A stretch of 35,181 nucleotides of DNA from Sulfobacillus benefaciens. GTDB taxonomy: Bacteria > Bacillota > Sulfobacillia > Sulfobacillales > Sulfobacillaceae. The notes below the pieces were generated by a model, which did not search any database, had not been told where the DNA came from, and saw only the letters and a list, made by a program, of their open reading frames with translations. The translations under genes and the position numbers were made by a program. Positions within the stretch are counted from its first letter, which is position 1; the number at the start of each line of letters is the position of its first letter. Below are positions 2,445 through 35,181 of this stretch, piece by piece. The stretch is from the NCBI GenBank assembly GCA_003023725.1, contig PXYT01000040.1:1-35181 (forward strand), given 5' to 3'.

Positions 2445-3077
2445 CTACTGTCGCAACGGTTGTCCCACGGGCTTTTCTCCGGAGTTCCGCGCAAAGTGGG
2501 CCGCACTCGTGGATTCATGCCAGAGCAGCCCCAGTTGCGACCCGATCTCGGCGGGTTCCGCCACCGGTCCGTGGACCGTCGCCTGCCATTGACCGTGCGT
2601 ATCGGTCCACAGCACAAAGAACTTGCCATATCCGTGGTACGGAGATTTTTGCGGAAGAATGACTAAAATGCTAAGCGGATGCCGCGGGCCTCCGTTGGCG
2701 GGTTCGGGGAATATCACCCAGCCCAAGGGTGCTCCGACATGCCCCGCCCAGGCCGCCCACGTCATCGGGACGGGCGATCCCGGCCACTGGCCTTGATGCA
2801 ATTCGCGCATCCAGTCCAGCGTCGTGCGCAAAGGTGTGGGCAGAGACGCCGGCGGATGATTCCACGCACTGTGCCGCCACGGCTCCACCCCGAGCCGCCA
2901 CCAGACGGTACCCCGAACAAAACGCGGCATGACGGTGACGGATTGTGCCGACGATCCTAACCACACCGTTTGCCGGGCAGAGCCCGGCGGATGGCTGGGC
3001 GTGGCCGCTGTCCCGCATCCCGTAAGCAGGATCAGCCCCATCACCAGGCCTGTTCCTAACCCGCCCCGGCGTCTCAT
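2445..3077 (-). CDS. Lipoprotein encoded in the secretion operon
   Basis: The 210-residue product begins MRRRGGLGTG and has a lipobox LLTGC with cysteine 21, so it should be lipidated and held outside the membrane. The start overlaps the stop of the CpaE-like gene in an ATGA, which indicates translational coupling. The frame is open for another 151 codons upstream, but that part is antisense-like, low-complexity and overlaps the neighbour, so it is not used. The mature part is Trp-rich (for example TVWWRLGVEPW) and has no motif I recognise. As the last large gene of the secretion operon it may be a surface part of the transfer channel, which is inference from position. Confidence 0.75.
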   Translation of the reverse strand: MRRRGGLGTGLVMGLILLTGCGTAATPSHPPGSARQTVWLGSSAQSVTVMPRFVRGTVWWRLGVEPWRHSAWNHPPASLPTPLRTTLDWMRELHQGQWPGSPVPMTWAAWAGHVGAPLGWVIFPEPANGGPRHPLSILVILPQKSPYHGYGKFFVLWTDTHGQWQATVHGPVAEPAEIGSQLGLLWHESTSAAHFARNSGEKPVGQPLRQ

Positions 3078-4471
3078 GGCGACGGCACCCGCGCTCCTTG
3101 CGTCTTGGGAGCTTTTTTGCGCCCGATGCGGACCGGGCGATCCGGGGGAGTCGAGCCGGCCACCGGGTCCGACGCGGTAACAATGGACGCCATCAACCGC
3201 AGCCACCACTTTTCCTGACGCGCCGCCACCGGCTGATGCGCTTGAAACGCCGTCTCCCACCGTTTGGGTTGATCGGGAATGACGGCCCATAAGGGATGCT
3301 GCAGATGCACCGCGGCAATTTCTTGCGGCGGCACGCCGCCTTTGCGCACGCGGTTGACCACCAGCCGCCGGGCAGCCCGGGGAATCCGCAAGTGGTCGAG
3401 TTTCTCCCAGAGCGTCAGTGTTTCCAGTACCGCCACGGATTCGGGTGTGGTGATGACCACCACTTGATCCACGTTTTGCAACGCTTCGTCCCAAAGCGGA
3501 TGCGTGGGCTGGGCCGGTAAGTCCAACCAAATAATTCGGGCCAGGTGACGGGCCTGGCGGATCATTTCCGTGACCAAGCCCGGCGGAACTTGGGCCAGCA
3601 TGGTATGGGAACGCAAAGGACCGGGCACCAGCCGGGCGCCCGTGCGAATCTCGACGGCCCGGTGCAAATATTCCCGAATTTCTTGCTTGTCCTGCGGCGT
3701 CAGCCGTTCGCCCATCGTGGATTCGTCCACCGTCGGCGTCGGAGCCAGGGACGTCAACAGCTGTTGCAAATGAATGGCATAAGGGCGGTTGGCCTCGCGA
3801 AAATACACGGGCAGCGCAGGTTTGTCCATATCCAAATCCAGCGCCAGACTGCCTTGATTGGCCGTGGCCCAGAGCGCATTGGCGATAAACCCGGTTTTGC
3901 CGCTGCGTCCTTGTGCGCTAATCACAGCAATGACGGTGGACGGCCCGCTGACAGCGGGATCCGTCCGTCTGAGCGCGACTTGTCGCGGCATGGTGTCGGG
4001 CAACGGCGGCCCGATGCCGTCCGGCGTGCCCAAATACGGTTGGACATTCTGCCAACGCCAGTCCGCCGTGACCAGTTGCACCAAATCGTCATATTGAAAT
4101 TCGTCGGCAATGAGGCAGTTGTAAATCTGATACGCGGCCAAGGTCGTCAACAAGGACCGGTATTCCGGAGCCGGGGCACCAAAGAGCACAGCAATGCGGA
4201 GATCCGGCCACTTCAATTTGAGGTGGATCAACACCTGATCCAACGGTGTCGCCCCGGCCAGCCAAGGCGTAACCAAGAGCGTCGTCCACGGGCACGTGGT
4301 TTGATAATCGGCTATCGCCGCCAATCCTTCGGTGGTCGTGGCCGCCTCTTTCGCCGACCAACCGGGCAAATGATCCTGAACCAAGGCGCCGGTGATCTGT
4401 TGAGCCAACTCCGGCGACACGTCTCCCAAGGCGTGTCCCAAAATCCATTCCATACTTCTTTCCTCCGACAT
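3074..4471 (-). CDS. CpaE/MinD-like P-loop ATPase with N-terminal receiver-like region
   Basis: The product has 465 residues. Residues 1-150 resemble the receiver-like region of CpaE/TadZ proteins. Residues about 178-400 form a ParA/MinD-type ATPase. Its P-loop AQGRSGKT at 186-193 keeps the catalytic lysine, and a LALDLDMDKP stretch near 209-218 matches the second nucleotide-binding motif. Proteins of this family place pilus or secretion machines at membrane sites. A strong AAGGAGGTGG site precedes the ATG. The start lies 15 bases after the GGDEF-EAL stop, and the stop overlaps the next gene, so these genes form one operon. The family assignment rests on motifs and length; the exact partner is unknown. 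A second, degenerate relative is at 6560-7801. Confidence 0.8.
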   Translation of the reverse strand: MSEERSMEWILGHALGDVSPELAQQITGALVQDHLPGWSAKEAATTTEGLAAIADYQTTCPWTTLLVTPWLAGATPLDQVLIHLKLKWPDLRIAVLFGAPAPEYRSLLTTLAAYQIYNCLIADEFQYDDLVQLVTADWRWQNVQPYLGTPDGIGPPLPDTMPRQVALRRTDPAVSGPSTVIAVISAQGRSGKTGFIANALWATANQGSLALDLDMDKPALPVYFREANRPYAIHLQQLLTSLAPTPTVDESTMGERLTPQDKQEIREYLHRAVEIRTGARLVPGPLRSHTMLAQVPPGLVTEMIRQARHLARIIWLDLPAQPTHPLWDEALQNVDQVVVITTPESVAVLETLTLWEKLDHLRIPRAARRLVVNRVRKGGVPPQEIAAVHLQHPLWAVIPDQPKRWETAFQAHQPVAARQEKWWLRLMASIVTASDPVAGSTPPDRPVRIGRKKAPKTQGARVPSP

Positions 4472-4486
4472 GACTCCACCTCCTTC

Positions 4487-6466
4487 TTAGGGCTTTGCGT
4501 GGGCCACCGCGTTCGTGTGCATCCCGGCGGCCGGCGCGAGCTCTCGCATCCCGGCCAGCAACGCGCCTTTCATCGGCGCGCTGGCTTGGGCGTCCCGAGT
4601 CACCGATTCCCAATGGGCATGATAGTGATCATGTTCCCGGGCCAGGTCGGTCTGCATGAACCCCCGGTCGCGCAGATAATGAGTCAGCGGACACGCCTCG
4701 GCCCGGCCGTGAGAGCCGGTCGCCCGCGGCAACACGCGATCCAAAAACTGATAAGCCAAATGGGCCGCGTAGGCGCCCAACAACGAGCGCGGCTGAGTGC
4801 CGGCGGGCTGTGGCGTAAAGGCCTGCAGCCAATGCAGCAACTCCGTCAGCGGCATGGGTTTGGCGAACACATAGCCTTGAATCCGGTCGACGCCCAAGAC
4901 TTGCAAGGCGTCCAAAATCTCCAGTGTCTCCACGCCTTCTGCCACAAAATGCGCTTGAAAACCCCGGGCCAGCGTTTGAATGCTAATCACAAACAGCAAA
5001 TCATCCGGATCATCCGGAATGTGCCGCACAAACGCTTGATCCAATTTAAAGGTGTCGATGGGCAGTTCTTTAATGCGCAAGAGGGAAGAATACGCCGAGC
5101 CCACGTCGTCCAGGGCCAATTGAAACTGCCGCGCTTTCAGAATTTGCAATTGGGACTTGGCCAAATCCCGAGACAGAAAATCACTGGTTTCCAAGAGTTC
5201 CAGAGTAATCCGATCCGGTTGCACCCGGGCCTGCCGCACTTGCTCCCCAATGTGGTCGATACAGGCAGGAGACAGCATGGAGGGTTCCAGATTCAAAGCT
5301 ACCGACAACGGCTGAGGAGTGTGTCCCCAGACATCCAACTGCTGAATATCCCGTAACACGTGGTCCAGCACGCCAAAGGTCAAGGTTTCCAATTCCTGGG
5401 GACTGAGCTGCGGCAAAAATTGAATCGGGCTCAACAGCCGGGCCCCGTCCTGCAGCCGCACCAAGGCTTCCAAGCTTTGCACCGTGCCGGTTTGCCCATC
5501 CACAATCGGTTGGTAATGCACCCGCAAATGTTGGGGAATCGCAGCATGAAACCGGGACGGCGCCGCCGGCGGCTGATACCAGGTCCAGACCCGGTCGCGA
5601 TGCGCCTTGGTTTCCTTGCTGCGGTACAAAGCCCAATCGGCATGCCGAATCAAGCCATCAGGATCGCTGCCGTCTTCGGGCGCCACCGTCAGCCCGACAC
5701 TCGCATGCACGCAGACCGACTCGCCATCCGGCAGCACCACGGGTTCCGTCAAATCGGTCAAGCAGTCCTGTAAAAAGGTTTCCACCGCGGCGAACTGCGT
5801 AAAGCCGCCCAGCACAAACAAAAATTCATCCCCGCCAATACGGGCTACCCGGTGGGGTCCATGCATCCAAGTCAGCAAGCGATGGGACCAATCCCGCAAG
5901 AGCTGATCGCCGGCTCCGTGCCCATGCGTGTCATTGACCGGTTTGAAGTCATCCAAATCCAGCATGCCCACCACCAACAGCGTCTGATCCTGATGCGCTT
6001 GCGTCAGCATCGCCGGCAAGGCGGCCAGAAAGGCGGCGCGATTTTCCAATCCCGTCAAATCGTCGTGACTGGCCCGGTAGCGTTGCCGGACGGCTTCTTC
6101 TTCCAAGTGATGCCGGGTATCCCAAAGATCGAAACTTTGACCGAGGACAGCACCCGCCCACCGCACCAAATCCTGCACTGCACTGTCGGCACTGGCGGCG
6201 GCATTCATCCAAATGCGCAAGGTGCCCCACCGTTGGCCGCCGCGCCGTATCGTACTGACTAAGACCACCGACTCCGGTTGCGGTGCGCCTTCTTGCCGCA
6301 TCGGCTGCCGTTGGTGCCACACCGCCGCGGCGTGAAAGACCCCTTGGCCCAAAATATGCTGTAAAAATTGCTGCACAAGCGTGGCCTCGTCCGCCGCGGC
6401 CAAGACGAGATCCGGCGGCTGTAAGACCGTGTAAAATAATGCCCGCAAACGCGCATCGGTGTCCAT
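4487..6466 (-). CDS. Dual GGDEF-EAL cyclic-di-GMP enzyme with C-terminal zinc-binding-like region
   Basis: The 659-residue protein lacks membrane segments. Residues 1-120 look like a GAF-type sensor. The GGDEF domain (about 130-295) keeps GGDEF at 211-215 and metal-binding Asp 170. The upstream product-inhibition site RxxD is replaced by HGPH. The EAL domain (about 305-545) keeps E333 of EAL, N392, E423, the DD pair 453-454, K474, E510 and Q530, so both synthesis and breakdown of c-di-GMP look chemically possible. The C-terminal 110 residues carry H569, C592 in CPLTHYL and a cluster H612, H614, H616, H618, which resembles the zinc-binding CZB domain. GGAG precedes the ATG. The gene lies between two CpaE-like genes in the secretion operon, so it may tune transfer or surface attachment. 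Confidence 0.93.
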   Translation of the reverse strand: MDTDARLRALFYTVLQPPDLVLAAADEATLVQQFLQHILGQGVFHAAAVWHQRQPMRQEGAPQPESVVLVSTIRRGGQRWGTLRIWMNAAASADSAVQDLVRWAGAVLGQSFDLWDTRHHLEEEAVRQRYRASHDDLTGLENRAAFLAALPAMLTQAHQDQTLLVVGMLDLDDFKPVNDTHGHGAGDQLLRDWSHRLLTWMHGPHRVARIGGDEFLFVLGGFTQFAAVETFLQDCLTDLTEPVVLPDGESVCVHASVGLTVAPEDGSDPDGLIRHADWALYRSKETKAHRDRVWTWYQPPAAPSRFHAAIPQHLRVHYQPIVDGQTGTVQSLEALVRLQDGARLLSPIQFLPQLSPQELETLTFGVLDHVLRDIQQLDVWGHTPQPLSVALNLEPSMLSPACIDHIGEQVRQARVQPDRITLELLETSDFLSRDLAKSQLQILKARQFQLALDDVGSAYSSLLRIKELPIDTFKLDQAFVRHIPDDPDDLLFVISIQTLARGFQAHFVAEGVETLEILDALQVLGVDRIQGYVFAKPMPLTELLHWLQAFTPQPAGTQPRSLLGAYAAHLAYQFLDRVLPRATGSHGRAEACPLTHYLRDRGFMQTDLAREHDHYHAHWESVTRDAQASAPMKGALLAGMRELAPAAGMHTNAVAHAKP

Positions 6467-28850: not shown

Positions 28851-28881
28851 CAGTGTGACCTCTTTTCGTTTTGGGCTGACG

Positions 28882-29177
28882 TTGTGAGTGCTAAGTAGGT
28901 AGGCTATAAACTCCTGGGGACTCAGGCCGGCATTCCGGGCGGCGAAAGTTTCAATTCCTCATAGGTAGGCTATAAACTTGATTTGATGGGCTTGAGCTTC
29001 TGTCGCCCAGCGGGGTTTCAATTCCTCATAGGTAGGCTATAAACCGGAGGCGCCGCGACGCCGTAGGCGGCGAAGTCTTTGTTTCAATTCCTCATAGGTA
29101 GGCTATAAACTGCTCTGGTCTCGCCGGAGTGGCGGGCCATCATCGTCGTTTCAATTCCTCATAGGTAGGCTATAAAC
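28882..29177 (-). CRISPR. Small CRISPR array, type I-B-like repeat, 5 repeats and 4 spacers
   Basis: Four identical 30-base repeats start at 28948, 29015, 29081 and 29148. On the plus strand they begin GTTTCAATTCCTCATAGG and end GGCTATAAAC. A fifth, degenerate repeat (28882-28911) keeps only the last 16 bases. Spacers are 36, 37, 36 and 37 bases. Read on the minus strand the repeat ends in ATTGAAAC, the crRNA handle known from type I-B systems, and the degenerate copy is then at the trailer end. The leader should therefore be on the right (29178 and up) and transcription runs towards dnaB. No cas gene is in the window. Confidence 0.97.
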
Positions 29178-29381: not shown

Positions 29382-30656
29382 TTACGATAACGCGGTCCCG
29401 CAACGAGTACAAAATTTTTCGTGCGTGATAAACGTGGCCCCACAATGCGGACAACGCACCCGCAAGGCCTGGCGGCGCCGGTAGGACCGTCCGCCCCAAA
29501 GGGCCAGACCGACAGCAATCACCGCCCCCAAACCCACGGCGGCCACATGATCCCACCGCAAGGTCGTCCATGTGACGTCCGTCGTCCACAGGCCGTCAGA
29601 AGCCAGCGTGGCGGAATGGGCTTGGACGGTGCCGCCCAACGGTACGTGATAGGCGGTTCGCCAGCCAACCAGCCCGTTCCAGCCGTTAGGTGTGTGCAAA
29701 TTCCACCCCGCCCACGTCGATGGCAACAGCCACAACGAAGACGGGGTAAACGTTAACGCCGTGGTGTACGTCTTTCGCCAAAAGGTTGGAGGTTTTGTCG
29801 TCGTCGTGGCATGCAGGGTGCCCCAAAGGCTATCGGATCCCGGCTTTAACGACACCTGGGCCGTCCACGAGGGAACGCCCTGGTGAGACGTCTCATGAGC
29901 ATGGGAATCGGCGCGGTGCCACCAAGACACAATGGCGGATTGGGTCGCCGGACTCATGGCATGCCAGGTTTTCGCCCCAAACGTCATGGTCCATGTACTG
30001 GATACGTGCGGTGTAGGGCTTAAGGTCACGGGCAATTGCAGCGTCCAATGCGGACGATACCACTGTACACCCCAATTCGCCGGCTGTGATCCCTGCTGCA
30101 GCGCATGACCCCACGACGGTTGGCCCGACGGCACGATCCAAGGCGGGCGAACCGTGTCCTGGCTGGCGCTGCTTTCCCAATTCCCCGCATAACTATTATG
30201 GGCAGCCTGCAGGGCCCGGGTGACCCAATTCCACTGATTGCCCGAATTGTTGTTCGGATCATGTACCACATAGGTTCGCGCCCAGGGCACGCCCGAAGAT
30301 GCTAGGGTCACCGGGTGAAAAGCCTGGGCCCCGGTGGCCGCCTGAAGAATGTGGTTCAGTTGGGCCAGCGTGCGAAACGAATCAGTAATGATCCACACAT
30401 CCTGACCAGAGTGGTTCTTCGTCGGCCCGGACACCACCGCGCCGGGCGGTTTAGCTTTTTTCAGCAACGTGGTCACTTGGGCTGGGGTAAGATGGCCCAC
30501 AGTCGTTAAATTGTGTGGGGTATCCGCCGCAGTCCAGGTAATCGTTCCAGACCCGTTGGGCTGAACCTGGGTGGTGACCGACACGGTCGCGCCACACCCC
30601 GCCAGAGTCAGGGCCAACAAGCCGCCGCTGACACCCCAAAGAATGCGCCGCTGCAT
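29382..30656 (-). CDS. Lipoprotein with C-terminal membrane helix and zinc ribbon
   Basis: The 424-residue protein has a lipobox LTLAGC with cysteine 21, a long Trp/Thr/Ser-rich extracellular part (about 22-370), a membrane helix near 375-395 (VGLGAVIAVGLALWGG) and a cytoplasmic zinc ribbon with CPHCG and CTRCG near the end. The lipid at one end and the zinc ribbon inside the cell at the other suggest a bridge or sensor across the membrane. Its ATG overlaps the stop of the upstream gene as TAATG. That neighbour carries a zinc ribbon at its N-terminus, so the pair may act together. No family is recognised. Confidence 0.8.
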   Translation of the reverse strand: MQRRILWGVSGGLLALTLAGCGATVSVTTQVQPNGSGTITWTAADTPHNLTTVGHLTPAQVTTLLKKAKPPGAVVSGPTKNHSGQDVWIITDSFRTLAQLNHILQAATGAQAFHPVTLASSGVPWARTYVVHDPNNNSGNQWNWVTRALQAAHNSYAGNWESSASQDTVRPPWIVPSGQPSWGHALQQGSQPANWGVQWYRPHWTLQLPVTLSPTPHVSSTWTMTFGAKTWHAMSPATQSAIVSWWHRADSHAHETSHQGVPSWTAQVSLKPGSDSLWGTLHATTTTKPPTFWRKTYTTALTFTPSSLWLLPSTWAGWNLHTPNGWNGLVGWRTAYHVPLGGTVQAHSATLASDGLWTTDVTWTTLRWDHVAAVGLGAVIAVGLALWGGRSYRRRQALRVRCPHCGATFITHEKFCTRCGTALS

Positions 30657-31252
30657 TATGCGGCCCTCCGCGTGGCCACAGCCCAGGATACCGTTCCCAG
30701 AATAGCCAAAACCAACCCCATTCCCACATGCACGGACAAGGACAGCGATCCGCCCATGACGTTGCCCAAGAGTCCGCCGCTGCCACTATTCAAAGACTGG
30801 GTGATGCTGCCCACAATGTGGGCCACGCCCAACACCAAGACAAATACCGTCAGCACGCTGCCCAAAAAGGCCGCGGACAAAAAGCGCTCCACGTCAGACC
30901 ATCCCTTGATGCGCCAGGCCGGCACCGCCGTCAAGGCTCCTAAGCCCAGCACCACCAACACCGCAATCCAGGCGAAAAATCCCAAGCGCAAGGGACTGAC
31001 GGCCAATCCCGCAGGCAAAGACACGGCCGGCAGGAAGAGACTGAGCAAAATGACCGCCAGCGAACCCAGCTTCCAGAAATCGCCGACTTGTGTCGTCAAA
31101 GTGACCGACCCGATGGACGGTAGAACCGGCTGGGATGACGAAGAGGTCTGGGGCGAAGCGAGAGGCGCGGCCTGTGCCGGCACCGCCGTGCCGCATTTGC
31201 CGCAAAAGGCCTGGCCTTCATGAACCGGAGCACCGCATTCGAGACAATTCAT
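30656..31252 (-). CDS. Zinc-ribbon membrane protein
   Basis: The 198-residue protein begins MNCLECGAPVHEGQAFCGKC, a four-cysteine zinc ribbon. A Ser/Pro/Gln linker and about four hydrophobic segments follow (near 70-88, 95-118, 130-152 and 170-190). GAGGAGG precedes the ATG at 31252; eleven codons of open frame before it have no site. Zinc-ribbon membrane proteins of this shape are common in Gram-positive bacteria and usually lack a known function. The gene is coupled to the lipoprotein gene at 29382 and follows recD2 by about 80 bases. Confidence 0.75.
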   Translation of the reverse strand: MNCLECGAPVHEGQAFCGKCGTAVPAQAAPLASPQTSSSSQPVLPSIGSVTLTTQVGDFWKLGSLAVILLSLFLPAVSLPAGLAVSPLRLGFFAWIAVLVVLGLGALTAVPAWRIKGWSDVERFLSAAFLGSVLTVFVLVLGVAHIVGSITQSLNSGSGGLLGNVMGGSLSLSVHVGMGLVLAILGTVSWAVATRRAA

Positions 31253-31299
31253 GAATAATTCCTCCTCAAATTTTTTTGGAGTCACACCCTTCGCACCCT

Positions 31300-31334: not shown

Positions 31335-33557
31335 TTAACACGGTGGGGCGCGCAAAGCTTCCGGCAACCGAGTTTGCCGATTGCCGCCATCGCCGCGCTT
31401 CAGCGCTAGCCAGAGCACGGAGGCTTCCGTAAACAGCCAGAGCTCTTCGCGAGCCCGGGTCATGGCGGTGTAGACCAAGTTGCGGTACAGCATCACATAG
31501 GCGTCGTAAAAGAGGGAACAGACCACCACAGGATATTCCGAGCCTTGGGATTTGTGGACGGTGGTGGCGTAAGCCAGCCGCAAATCCCGGCCCTCCGTCG
31601 GGGAGAAAGCCACCACGTGATCGGCAAACTGCACCCAAAGCCGTGCGCCGTTGTCGTCATCGGGCCCGTCACCCCGAATAGCAACCACCTGGCCCATATC
31701 GCCGTTGAAGACGTTGTGCGCATAGGCATTCTTAATTTGCATCACCCGGTCTCCCACTCGAAAAGACAGGCCGCCTTGCGCCGTCCAAATCGGGTCGTGC
31801 GGACCGGCCGGATTCATCATATCCCGCAACAAGGGATTCAGAGCATCCGTGCCTAAGGGGCCGCGGCGAATCGGGGTCAGCACTTGGATATCGTGCCAAG
31901 GGCGTCCAGCTTGATGCAACGCCTGAATGCGTGCCAGCAAATCCCGTTGAACCCCGGTCTTATCGGCACCCTTCTCATAGCGGGCGATCATCACGTCGGC
32001 ATTGGCCGGCGGTACCCGGTGAGCCAACAAGTCATGGGCCGCGACGGTGATTCCCGAATTGGACCGGAAATTGTGGGTCAACGCGTAGACCGGCACTAAC
32101 TGGCTGTCAATCAGATCTTTCAGCACACTGCCCGGCCCGACTGACGGCAACTGGTGGGCATCGCCAATCCACACCACCCGCGTGTGAGCTGCGAGCGCTT
32201 GCCACAAGGCACTGGCCAATGGCAAATCCATCATCGACACTTCATCGACAATCAGCCAGGCGACATCCAGCGGATCCTCCGCGTTTTTGAGAAACGCCAT
32301 ATCGGTCGGTGACCAGCCTAACAGGCGGTGTAAGGTCAAGGCGGGATGGCCGGTCACCGCCGTCATCCGCTGAGCGGCCCGGGCTGTCGGTGCGGCCAAG
32401 ACAATCTGGTCGGAGGGCACGCCTTCATGCTGCGTTAACCAGGTCAGAAGCCCGTGCAAAATCGTGGTCTTGCCGGTCCCGGGACCGCCGGTAATAATGC
32501 TGAAAGCGGACTGCACAGCCCCGGCCAACGCGGCGCGTTGTGCGGACGCATACGTCATGTGCGTCTGGCTTTCCAGCCAGGCCCAGTCGACGCCGGACAC
32601 CCCGCCTGGTCCGTCTGGATGGCGGCGGATATCTCGGGCCAGGCGCCGCTCCATCCGATCCACCCAGGCCAAGAGCCACCGGCCTTCCGCGTCTTGGACG
32701 ACATCGGGCAAGGCGGCCAGCCGGGATTGCAGAGCCCCCAACGCCGTCCGCACGGTTTCGGGGTCTTGGTCGTGCAAAAGATCCACCGCCCGATCTTGCA
32801 ATTGATCGGAGGTTTGAAAACAGTCGCCTTGGGTCAATGCCGTCTCCAACCCAAAGCGCCAGACCGCTTCCAGCCGTTCGGGGCTTAAAGGCGCCCAGCC
32901 CAGCGACAACGCCATCCGGTCCGCGGTATGAAAGCCCACGCCCCAGGTGTCCTGGGTCAAGGCATAAGGGTTCGCCCGGACCCGAGCCATGGCGCGGGGG
33001 CCGTACTGAGCCGTCAACCGGCGGGCCACGGAAGGATCGATATCCCACTGCAACAACCAGATAATCACGTCATCGGCACCCTGGTGGTCGCGGAAGAATT
33101 GCTGCCACAGGCGGGCTTTATGCTCGGATACGCCTTTTAGCGCCGTCAGCCGCTCCGGATGCTCTCGTAGCATCGACAATGTGTCCGGGCCGAATGCGGC
33201 CACTAATTTCGCCGCCGTTTTCTCACCCAAATGCGGACAATGGGCGGTCGACAAATACCGGACCAGTCCCGATGCCGTCACCGGATCGGCAGCCTGAGCG
33301 GCTTGGACATGAAATTGCCGCCCATAACGAGGATGCGTATCCCAGTAGCCGTAGAACAACAGTGGCTGGTGAAAGGACAGATCGCCCAGCGCGCCGACCA
33401 CCGTGACAATCTCCGTCGCGTCCGATCCTGCGGTTTGCAACTCCGCTACTCCCACACACCACTCGGTGTCCGGATGGCGATAGCGAATCTGATGCAGACG
33501 GCCTGCCAGAATTTCGATTGAGTGCTGAATCGGTGGCCGTCGTTCGGTTGTGGGCAC
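31335..33557 (-). CDS. recD2: RecD2-type superfamily 1B helicase
   Basis: The 740-residue protein has the RecD2 layout. An N-terminal OB-like part is followed by helix-hairpin-helix repeats (100-200; for example LKGVSEHKARLW, then GVGFHTADRMA). The helicase core follows, with Walker A GGPGTGKTT at 357-365, WLIVDEVSMMDL, DAHQLPSVGPGS, TVHKSQGSEYP and YTAMTRAREEL. These predict 5'-to-3' DNA unwinding. The start is a GTG behind AAGGAGGG at seven bases. The large CRISPR array ends 28 bases before this GTG, so a promoter, if separate, must lie in or beyond the array. RecD-type helicases replace DinG in type IV-D CRISPR loci, which makes this neighbourhood notable. Confidence 0.93.
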   Translation of the reverse strand: MPTTERRPPIQHSIEILAGRLHQIRYRHPDTEWCVGVAELQTAGSDATEIVTVVGALGDLSFHQPLLFYGYWDTHPRYGRQFHVQAAQAADPVTASGLVRYLSTAHCPHLGEKTAAKLVAAFGPDTLSMLREHPERLTALKGVSEHKARLWQQFFRDHQGADDVIIWLLQWDIDPSVARRLTAQYGPRAMARVRANPYALTQDTWGVGFHTADRMALSLGWAPLSPERLEAVWRFGLETALTQGDCFQTSDQLQDRAVDLLHDQDPETVRTALGALQSRLAALPDVVQDAEGRWLLAWVDRMERRLARDIRRHPDGPGGVSGVDWAWLESQTHMTYASAQRAALAGAVQSAFSIITGGPGTGKTTILHGLLTWLTQHEGVPSDQIVLAAPTARAAQRMTAVTGHPALTLHRLLGWSPTDMAFLKNAEDPLDVAWLIVDEVSMMDLPLASALWQALAAHTRVVWIGDAHQLPSVGPGSVLKDLIDSQLVPVYALTHNFRSNSGITVAAHDLLAHRVPPANADVMIARYEKGADKTGVQRDLLARIQALHQAGRPWHDIQVLTPIRRGPLGTDALNPLLRDMMNPAGPHDPIWTAQGGLSFRVGDRVMQIKNAYAHNVFNGDMGQVVAIRGDGPDDDNGARLWVQFADHVVAFSPTEGRDLRLAYATTVHKSQGSEYPVVVCSLFYDAYVMLYRNLVYTAMTRAREELWLFTEASVLWLALKRGDGGNRQTRLPEALRAPPC

Positions 33558-33585
33558 GACAGTTCCCTCCTTGAAGTATCAGTAC

Positions 33586-35113
33586 GTTTTACTCCTTATG
33601 AGGAGAATCGGATTAAGGTGACCGCCGGGAATGGGTGCATGGATTCGACGATTATGTTTCACTCCTGTTTCACTCCTCATCAGGGTAATCGGATTAATGT
33701 AACGGTTAGTGGTGGAGGCCTTGCAGCACGGCCTGGTCGTTTCACTCCTCATGAAGGTAATCAGATTAATGTAACTAAAATCCGTAAATTCCTCGCGGCG
33801 GCCGATCCGGTTTCACTCCTCATGAAGGTAATCAGATTAATGTAACGTGCCGGATCCGGAACCGAGGGAGTCCGCAAACGTTTCACTCCTCATAAGATAA
33901 TCAGATTAATGTAACCTTGGGCATGCATGTATCCTATGTGTCTCACGCCGTTTCACTCCTCACAAGGTAATCAGATTAATGTAACGGTTGTGGGGGGCCT
34001 GGGGAGTGACACGAGAGCTGGTTTCACTCCTCACAAGGTAATCAGATTAATGTAACGTATACGACCCATTCCGAGTCGACGCAAATGCCGGTTTCACTCC
34101 TCACAAGGTAATCAGATTAATGTAACTTGAACTCGACGCCCAGGGGAATGTGCCGGTGGTAGTTTCACTCCTCATAAGGTAATCAGATTAATGGGACGCG
34201 GAGTGCAAGTGGATCAGTTGGCCGCCATTGCTGTTTCACTCCTCATCAGGACAATCGGATTAATGTGACCGAACCGCATCAATTTTTCCGTTTACCCGTT
34301 TCACTCCTCATAAGGGAATCAGATTAATGTAACGAAAAACGGCCAGCATGTGTCCTTTGGCTGGTCGGGGTTTCACTCCTCATGAAGGTAATCAGATTAA
34401 TGTAACCTGTATTGCGTTTAGGTCGCAGTCTCGGTCGAGAAGTTTCACTCCTCATGAAGGTAATCAGATTAATGGGACTAAAAGCGGTAAAATCTATCTT
34501 TGGATTTGGGCGGTTTCACTACTCACAAGGTAATCAGATTAATGTAACTCGAGGATTATGTGGCGGATGCCGCCACGGTATGGGTTTCACTCCTCACAAG
34601 GTAATCAGATTAATGTAACGGCAGCGCCAACGAGAGACCTTGCAGACCAGTTGGGTTTCACTCCTCACAAGGTAATCAGATTAATGTAACCGGGTAATCC
34701 AGTACTTAAAGGAGCGTGCGATGATGTTTCACTCCTCACAAGATAATCAGATTAATGTAACGTGGATCGGGCGGCAGCAGCCCGAGCATCTGATGTTTCA
34801 CTCCTCACAAGATAATCAGATTAATGTAACGCAAAGTCTGGCCGACACCATGCGTCACGATGCAGTTTCACTCCTCACAAGATAATCAGATTAATGTAAC
34901 CGCATTTGGGTCCGGGTACCCGTTTCCGAAGCCCAGTTTCACTCCTCACAAGGTAATCAGATTAATGTAACTTGAGATCCGCTACGGCGTGAAGACCTTC
35001 GCAGAGGTTTCACTCCTCACAAGGTAATCAGATTAATGTAACCCGCCATCGAGCACTCGGATGCTCCGCTTAAAGCAGTTTCACTCCTCACAAGGTAATC
35101 AGATTAATGTAAC
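33586..35113 (-). CRISPR. Large CRISPR array, 22 repeats and 21 spacers, variable 36-37-base repeat
   Basis: Repeats begin GTTTCACTCCTCA on the plus strand and end GATTAATGTAAC. The middle varies and gives 36- or 37-base units; consensus copies occupy the high-coordinate end. Most spacers are 33-36 bases; one (34270-34297) is 28. The first two repeats at the left end are the most divergent, as in a trailer. On the minus strand the repeat ends in AGTGAAAC, close to the handle of the small array. The leader should lie to the right of 35113, mostly outside the window. Only 28 bases separate the array from recD2. No cas gene is in the window. Confidence 0.97.
33656..33666. repeat. 11-base stub of a CRISPR repeat
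   Basis: GTTTCACTCCT stands directly before the complete second repeat, which starts with the same bases. The first spacer is thus 33 bases plus this stub. Confidence 0.85.
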
Positions 35114-35181
35114 GCGGCCCCGGAAAACGGCTCCGGGTCACGTGGTGCGGCTTGCTTTGCGCGAACCGTCTTATGCGACGA
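35114..35181. other. Presumed start of the CRISPR leader
   Basis: No further repeat occurs at the expected distance after the last consensus repeat, so the array ends at 35113. The remaining 68 bases are GC-rich and contain a small hairpin around CCCCGG and CCGGG. The leader and any cas genes would lie beyond the window. Confidence 0.45.

Follow-up and report, generated by a model that had tools for sequence, protein, structure and literature searches.

A CRISPR array beside recD2 in Sulfobacillus benefaciens probably belongs to a divergent RecD-type type IV system, with recD2 as a likely bystander

Does a helicase gene that lies next to a CRISPR array belong to the system that the array serves? 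The question is raised by a window of 35,181 nucleotides which is the entire contig C91 (PXYT01000040.1) of a draft genome of Sulfobacillus benefaciens (GCA_003023725.1; 4.56 Mb in 155 contigs), and near the right end of which a recD2 gene and an array are almost in contact. An earlier note, made from this DNA alone, took the two as a candidate type IV-D-like locus and gave, as the alternative, an ordinary helicase that sits beside the array by chance. The IV-D arrangement, in which RecD replaces DinG, was proposed by Pinilla-Redondo et al. (as cited in PMC7434947 and PMC11127173). The 2025 classification has three type IV subtypes and accords the RecD-associated variant no formal subtype status (PMC12669027), and what IV-D targets is given as unknown in a 2024 review (PMC11127173). 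The closeness of the pair, as the note described it, is confirmed by the coordinates: recD2 (31335–33557; 740 aa, GTG start) and the array (33586–35113) are both on the minus strand and 28 nt apart (33558–33585), and the array end that faces the gene, at 33586, is the leader-distal one.

The array, hereafter array A, comprises 22 repeats of 36–37 nt (in crRNA sense, GTTACATTAATCTGATTACCTTGTGAGGAGTGAAAC) and 21 spacers, mostly of 33–36 nt. It is followed by 68 nt of a leader that is cut by the contig end (35114–35181, minus strand), and these 68 nt are identical, in inverted orientation, to the leader of a second array on another contig of the same genome, C18. Perfect repeats stand at the leader end and degenerate ones towards recD2 (edit distance to the consensus of 0 versus 9; from left to right 9, 3, 2, 2, 2, 0, 0, 0, 3, 6, 2, 2, 4, 1, 0, 0, 1, 1, 1, 0, 0, 0). 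That the crRNA strand is the minus strand follows from these degenerate repeats, from the repeat's 3' end (...GTGAAAC) and from the leader shared with C18; the array and recD2 therefore run in the same direction, the gene lying in the leader-distal position. The folding of single repeats was set aside as evidence, the hairpins being weak and unequal. Elsewhere in the genome the repeat family is found only on C18, beside cas6, csf1-like and csf2 genes, and the repeat pattern had no match in GTDB genomes or in IMG/VR.

Since the window is a whole contig, nothing lies to the right of it in the present assembly, where the earlier note had thought that csf and cas genes might be found. Such genes were nevertheless found on two other contigs, C18, which has the repeat, and C21, reached by a search for csf3. 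Read in the direction of transcription, C18 (5040 bp) carries the leader, an array in which 27 or more repeats of the array A family can be recognised and a perfect one again adjoins the leader, and then cas6 (2455–3237; Pfam 4.4e-12), a csf1-like gene (3194–3928; 244 aa; csf1 being Cas8-like) and csf2, the Cas7 gene that is the signature of type IV (from 3928 to where the contig stops; PADLOC typeIV_Cas7 1.8e-31). The csf1-like product contains two CxxC motifs and has a weak Csf1_0_IV match (1e-3); its single-sequence structure prediction, with a pLDDT of 33, was useless. C21 (4879 bp) carries two ORFs (142 and 334 aa), csf3 (the Cas5 gene; typeIV_Cas5 1.2e-26) and, directly behind csf3, a recD that runs off the contig. 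Neither of these two contigs has a dinG. None of the curated NCBI models for csf1–csf3 reaches its cut-off (TIGR03115 5.4e-6, with csf2; TIGR03116 0.02; TIGR03114 no match, including with the csf1-like protein), and matches so far below the cut-offs mean that this type IV system is divergent. The csf2 of C18 matches the csf2 of the Thermoanaerobacterium locus weakly, and it had no match when searched against plasmids by tblastn. C91, C18 and C21 are three separate contigs, csf2 and the C21 recD both being cut by contig ends; their linkage is putative, and the effector genes of the system of array A most likely lie on C18 and C21 of the same genome.

Two further observations concern these searches. 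In the C18 array, some 150 bp of other sequence split one repeat (L009, 1284–1458), as if by a small insertion. A csf2-like match on a contig of another genome (G021:C339) was dropped as type IV, its neighbours resembling type III.

A search of 151 genomes with the spacers of the two arrays, in which two stretches were scored per genome, gave 8 distinct protospacers that were accepted. Spacer 6 of array A has a 34/34 match in G027, within a gene for a VirD4/TraG coupling protein, and spacer 25 of the C18 array matches at 88–97% in three genomes (G027, G008 and G002), in G027 within an ArdC-type anti-restriction gene. A single contig, G032:C209, is matched both by spacer 24 of the C18 array (34/34) and by spacer 18 of array A (94%), together with three weaker spacer matches. 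Spacer 5 of array A matches at 89% on G026:C48, next to an AAA_24 ATPase of which the window encodes a homolog. In other words, the two arrays aim at the same elements, which is strong evidence that both serve one system. Neither array had a match among plasmids and phages. The 5' flanks of the protospacers on the crRNA-sense strand are TTC (three times), CTC, ATC, TTT, ATT and GGG, such that T stands at −2 in 7 of the 8 (p about 0.0002 if T = 22%, some of the matches being partial). Judged from these few flanks, the candidate PAM is a TTC-like 5' motif; type IV-A of Pseudomonas aeruginosa is reported to have a 5'-TTC PAM (PMC8175902).

The window itself looks like a conjugative plasmid or an integrative element, encoding as it does a VirB2/TrbC-like pilin, an SLT transglycosylase, a VirB11/TadA-like ATPase, DnaB and a CHC2 primase; by megablast it had no match among plasmids. 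Some of the proteins of this element have homologs on the contigs targeted by the spacers, which fits competition between related plasmids. The apparently conjugative element also encodes a GGDEF-EAL protein of cyclic-di-GMP turnover (4487–6466) and, between array A and a smaller array described below, two adjoining genes (29382–31285) with likely membrane segments and a weak zinc-ribbon motif, placed at the C-terminus of one product and at the N-terminus of the other.

Two helicases of the RecD family come into question for the system, one beside array A and one behind csf3. The latter, on C21, has a single ortholog in 201 genomes searched, 46–47% identical, on contig C213 of genome G021, and a search of viral contigs with it returned nothing. 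At the G021 locus the end of a csf3 (49% over 43 aa) lies just upstream of recD and a CRISPR array just downstream. The N-terminus of this recD is in another frame, such that the copy may be broken or mis-assembled. The whole locus (L106, 3346–6600), with its csf3 end, its recD split over two frames and an array whose repeat is a different one, is a second, possibly decayed member of the C21-type variant.

The window protein, by comparison, has the features of canonical RecD2/YrrC (SF1B, TIGR01448; structure 3e1s). It matches TIGR01448 over its full length with 631.8 bits against a cut-off of 500, has the complete domain set (OB_YrrC, HHH_RecD2, SH3_13, AAA, UvrD_C_2) and finds its best PDB match in 3e1s (1.8e-62). 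In maximum-likelihood trees it falls inside the RecD2 clade, while the type IV RecDs, sampled as the C21/G021 pair and three from csf2 loci (two of class relatives, and that of pMU3262 of Thermoanaerobacterium), stand together across a supported split (99/96; 97/93 with E. coli RecD added), although their branches are very long, such that the joint placement may be an artefact and their mutual order is unsure. An AU test rejects a tree in which the window RecD2 is held with the type IV RecDs (p 0.00014). The earlier note had named in advance two results that would count against it. One was a grouping with housekeeping RecD2 proteins, and it is with these canonical proteins that the window RecD2 branches; the other was an element devoid of effector genes, and here effectors do exist, but on contigs whose linkage to C91 is putative.

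The surroundings of its relatives agree with this placement. The three nearest (L103, L104 and L105, at 62–67%; L153, L154 and L162, which are named records, cover the same loci) have neither arrays nor csf genes beside them: L103 and L105 (66–67%) adjoin a mandelate-racemase-like gene, L103 amid metabolic and tRNA-synthetase genes in a region that looks chromosomal, and L104 (62%) adjoins a ParB-like gene. RecD2 is not a core gene in this bacterial family, for which the relatives compared are Bacillota MAGs: a RecD2 match of any kind is present in 18 of the 41 genomes searched, its own included, and full-length RecD2 is absent from the near-complete genomes G003–G005 of the genus. Moreover, the GC content of recD2 (0.615) is that of the element backbone (0.60) and differs from that of the cas genes (0.53–0.57). 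Since the system has its own, different RecD, the adjoining recD2 is most likely an ordinary mobile-element helicase and part of the backbone of the element itself, as the alternative in the earlier note had it.

The overall emerging picture is that array A is very probably one of two arrays of a RecD-carrying type IV ('IV-D') system, with its effectors on C18 and C21 and with the window recD2 as a bystander. Of the proposal of a type IV-D-like locus, the part that concerns the array holds, given the repeat and leader in common with the csf locus, the RecD with csf3 and the plasmid-directed spacers; the part that concerns the window recD2 falls with the tree and the AU test. The observations that carry this reading are gene content, the common repeat and leader, the protospacers and the tree. 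From them we infer the linkage of the contigs and, beyond it, complex formation, interference, a role for RecD and adaptation in trans, along the following lines. Both arrays would be transcribed from the common leader sequence; Cas6 would cut the repeats of the transcript, and Csf1, Csf2 and Csf3 would assemble on the crRNA, as in type IV-A (PMC11127173, PMC8175902). The complex would then bind competing plasmids within genes for conjugation and maintenance, at sites with a TTC-like 5' flank, and there the C21 RecD, in place of DinG, may unwind the DNA at the bound target such that the plasmid is blocked. The Cas1 of a type I-B-like operon on contig C81, as the only Cas1 found in the genome, probably supplies new spacers in trans.

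It is also conceivable, if unlikely, that the window recD2 is a second helicase recruited to the system and co-transcribed with the array A precursor. The two leaders would then be divergent neighbours in one two-way locus, in which recD2, array A and its leader are read leftward and, on the other side, leader, array, cas6–csf1–csf2 and eventually csf3–recD are read rightward. C91 and C18 do end in identical, inverted leaders, and among the contigs of the genome there is no third that carries the leader; this would fit arrays that stand back to back, and missing short contigs fit as well. The 28-nt gap, read directly, contains a ribosome-binding site (AAGGAGG) alone and leaves little room for a promoter of recD2's own, which would fit co-transcription with the array; the stretch 33400–35181, between array and gene included, yielded no promoter- or terminator-like site, and every helicase motif of recD2 is intact. 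If C91 and C18 do stand back to back, recD2 would lie at the edge of the whole system and the array transcript could extend into it, and a type IV system would then have two helicases of different descent. The absence of arrays beside the three closest relatives, the grouping with canonical RecD2, the backbone-like GC content and the fact that the operon already carries its own RecD on C21 all speak against such recruitment.

Highly improbable, in our judgement, is a reading that detaches array A from type IV altogether, as an inactive remnant or as an array used by the chromosomal type I-B system. The genome does contain a type I-B-like operon (L032, on C81, 483–8936) with cas1, cas4, cas3, cas5, cas7, cas8 and a cas6-like gene, and the window holds a small second array (28881–29177) with a 30-nt repeat, GTTTCAATTCCTCATAGGTAGGCTATAAAC, one mismatch from that of a 23-repeat array on contig C8; by a pairing of repeat and operon that we infer, this 30-nt repeat probably belongs to the type I-B system. 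The degenerate repeats at the distal end of array A would also suit a remnant. The repeat of array A, however, measures 36 nt as against 30 nt and equals the one that precedes cas6–csf1–csf2, while its leader-proximal copies are perfect and, in relatives, the two arrays have spacer matches to the same plasmids. As to the 30-nt repeat, a congeneric species carries an array of 21 repeats (L114, on G002:C118, 4357–5688) whose repeat is close to it (CAATTCCTTATAGGTA...).

That the window recD2 is itself the IV-D helicase, as its 28-nt distance from the array and its PADLOC RecD_0_IVD match (203 bits) might imply, is scarcely tenable, since RecD2s of non-CRISPR, array-less settings score the same or higher with that model (201–257 bits), such that the match is no proof of IV-D, since the tree and the AU test reject it, and since a different RecD lies directly behind csf3.

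With recD2 taken as a bystander, the system can be set beside known ones. It resembles the type IV-D locus of pMU3262 of Thermoanaerobacterium saccharolyticum (NC_017998) in having csf2, csf3, cas6, a RecD-family helicase and arrays, with no cas1 or cas2 beside the locus and with plasmid-directed spacers. The order of the genes differs, being csf2 ... cas6, recD in pMU3262 and, here, array, cas6, csf1-like, csf2 on one contig and csf3, recD on another; in contrast to pMU3262, moreover, the C21 RecD is on a separate, deeply diverged branch, csf1 is barely recognisable and this genome has two arrays with one leader sequence. With the type IV-A (DinG) system of Pseudomonas aeruginosa it has in common Csf2, Csf3 and Cas6, with a putative Csf1, the targeting of plasmids and a 5'-TTC PAM (PMC8175902), here a candidate one, but it is RecD and not DinG that adjoins csf3. 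We conclude that the genome encodes a new variant within RecD-type type IV, on contigs that may be linked, and that the recD2 of the window is most likely a bystander.

RecD-type type IV systems are rare and among the least understood of CRISPR systems. The two arrays described here, with their protospacers in conjugation and anti-restriction genes of related plasmids and their candidate PAM, make the target, the PAM and the need for the helicase directly testable. The case shows, too, that a helicase which lies beside an array is not to be counted into the system without a tree.
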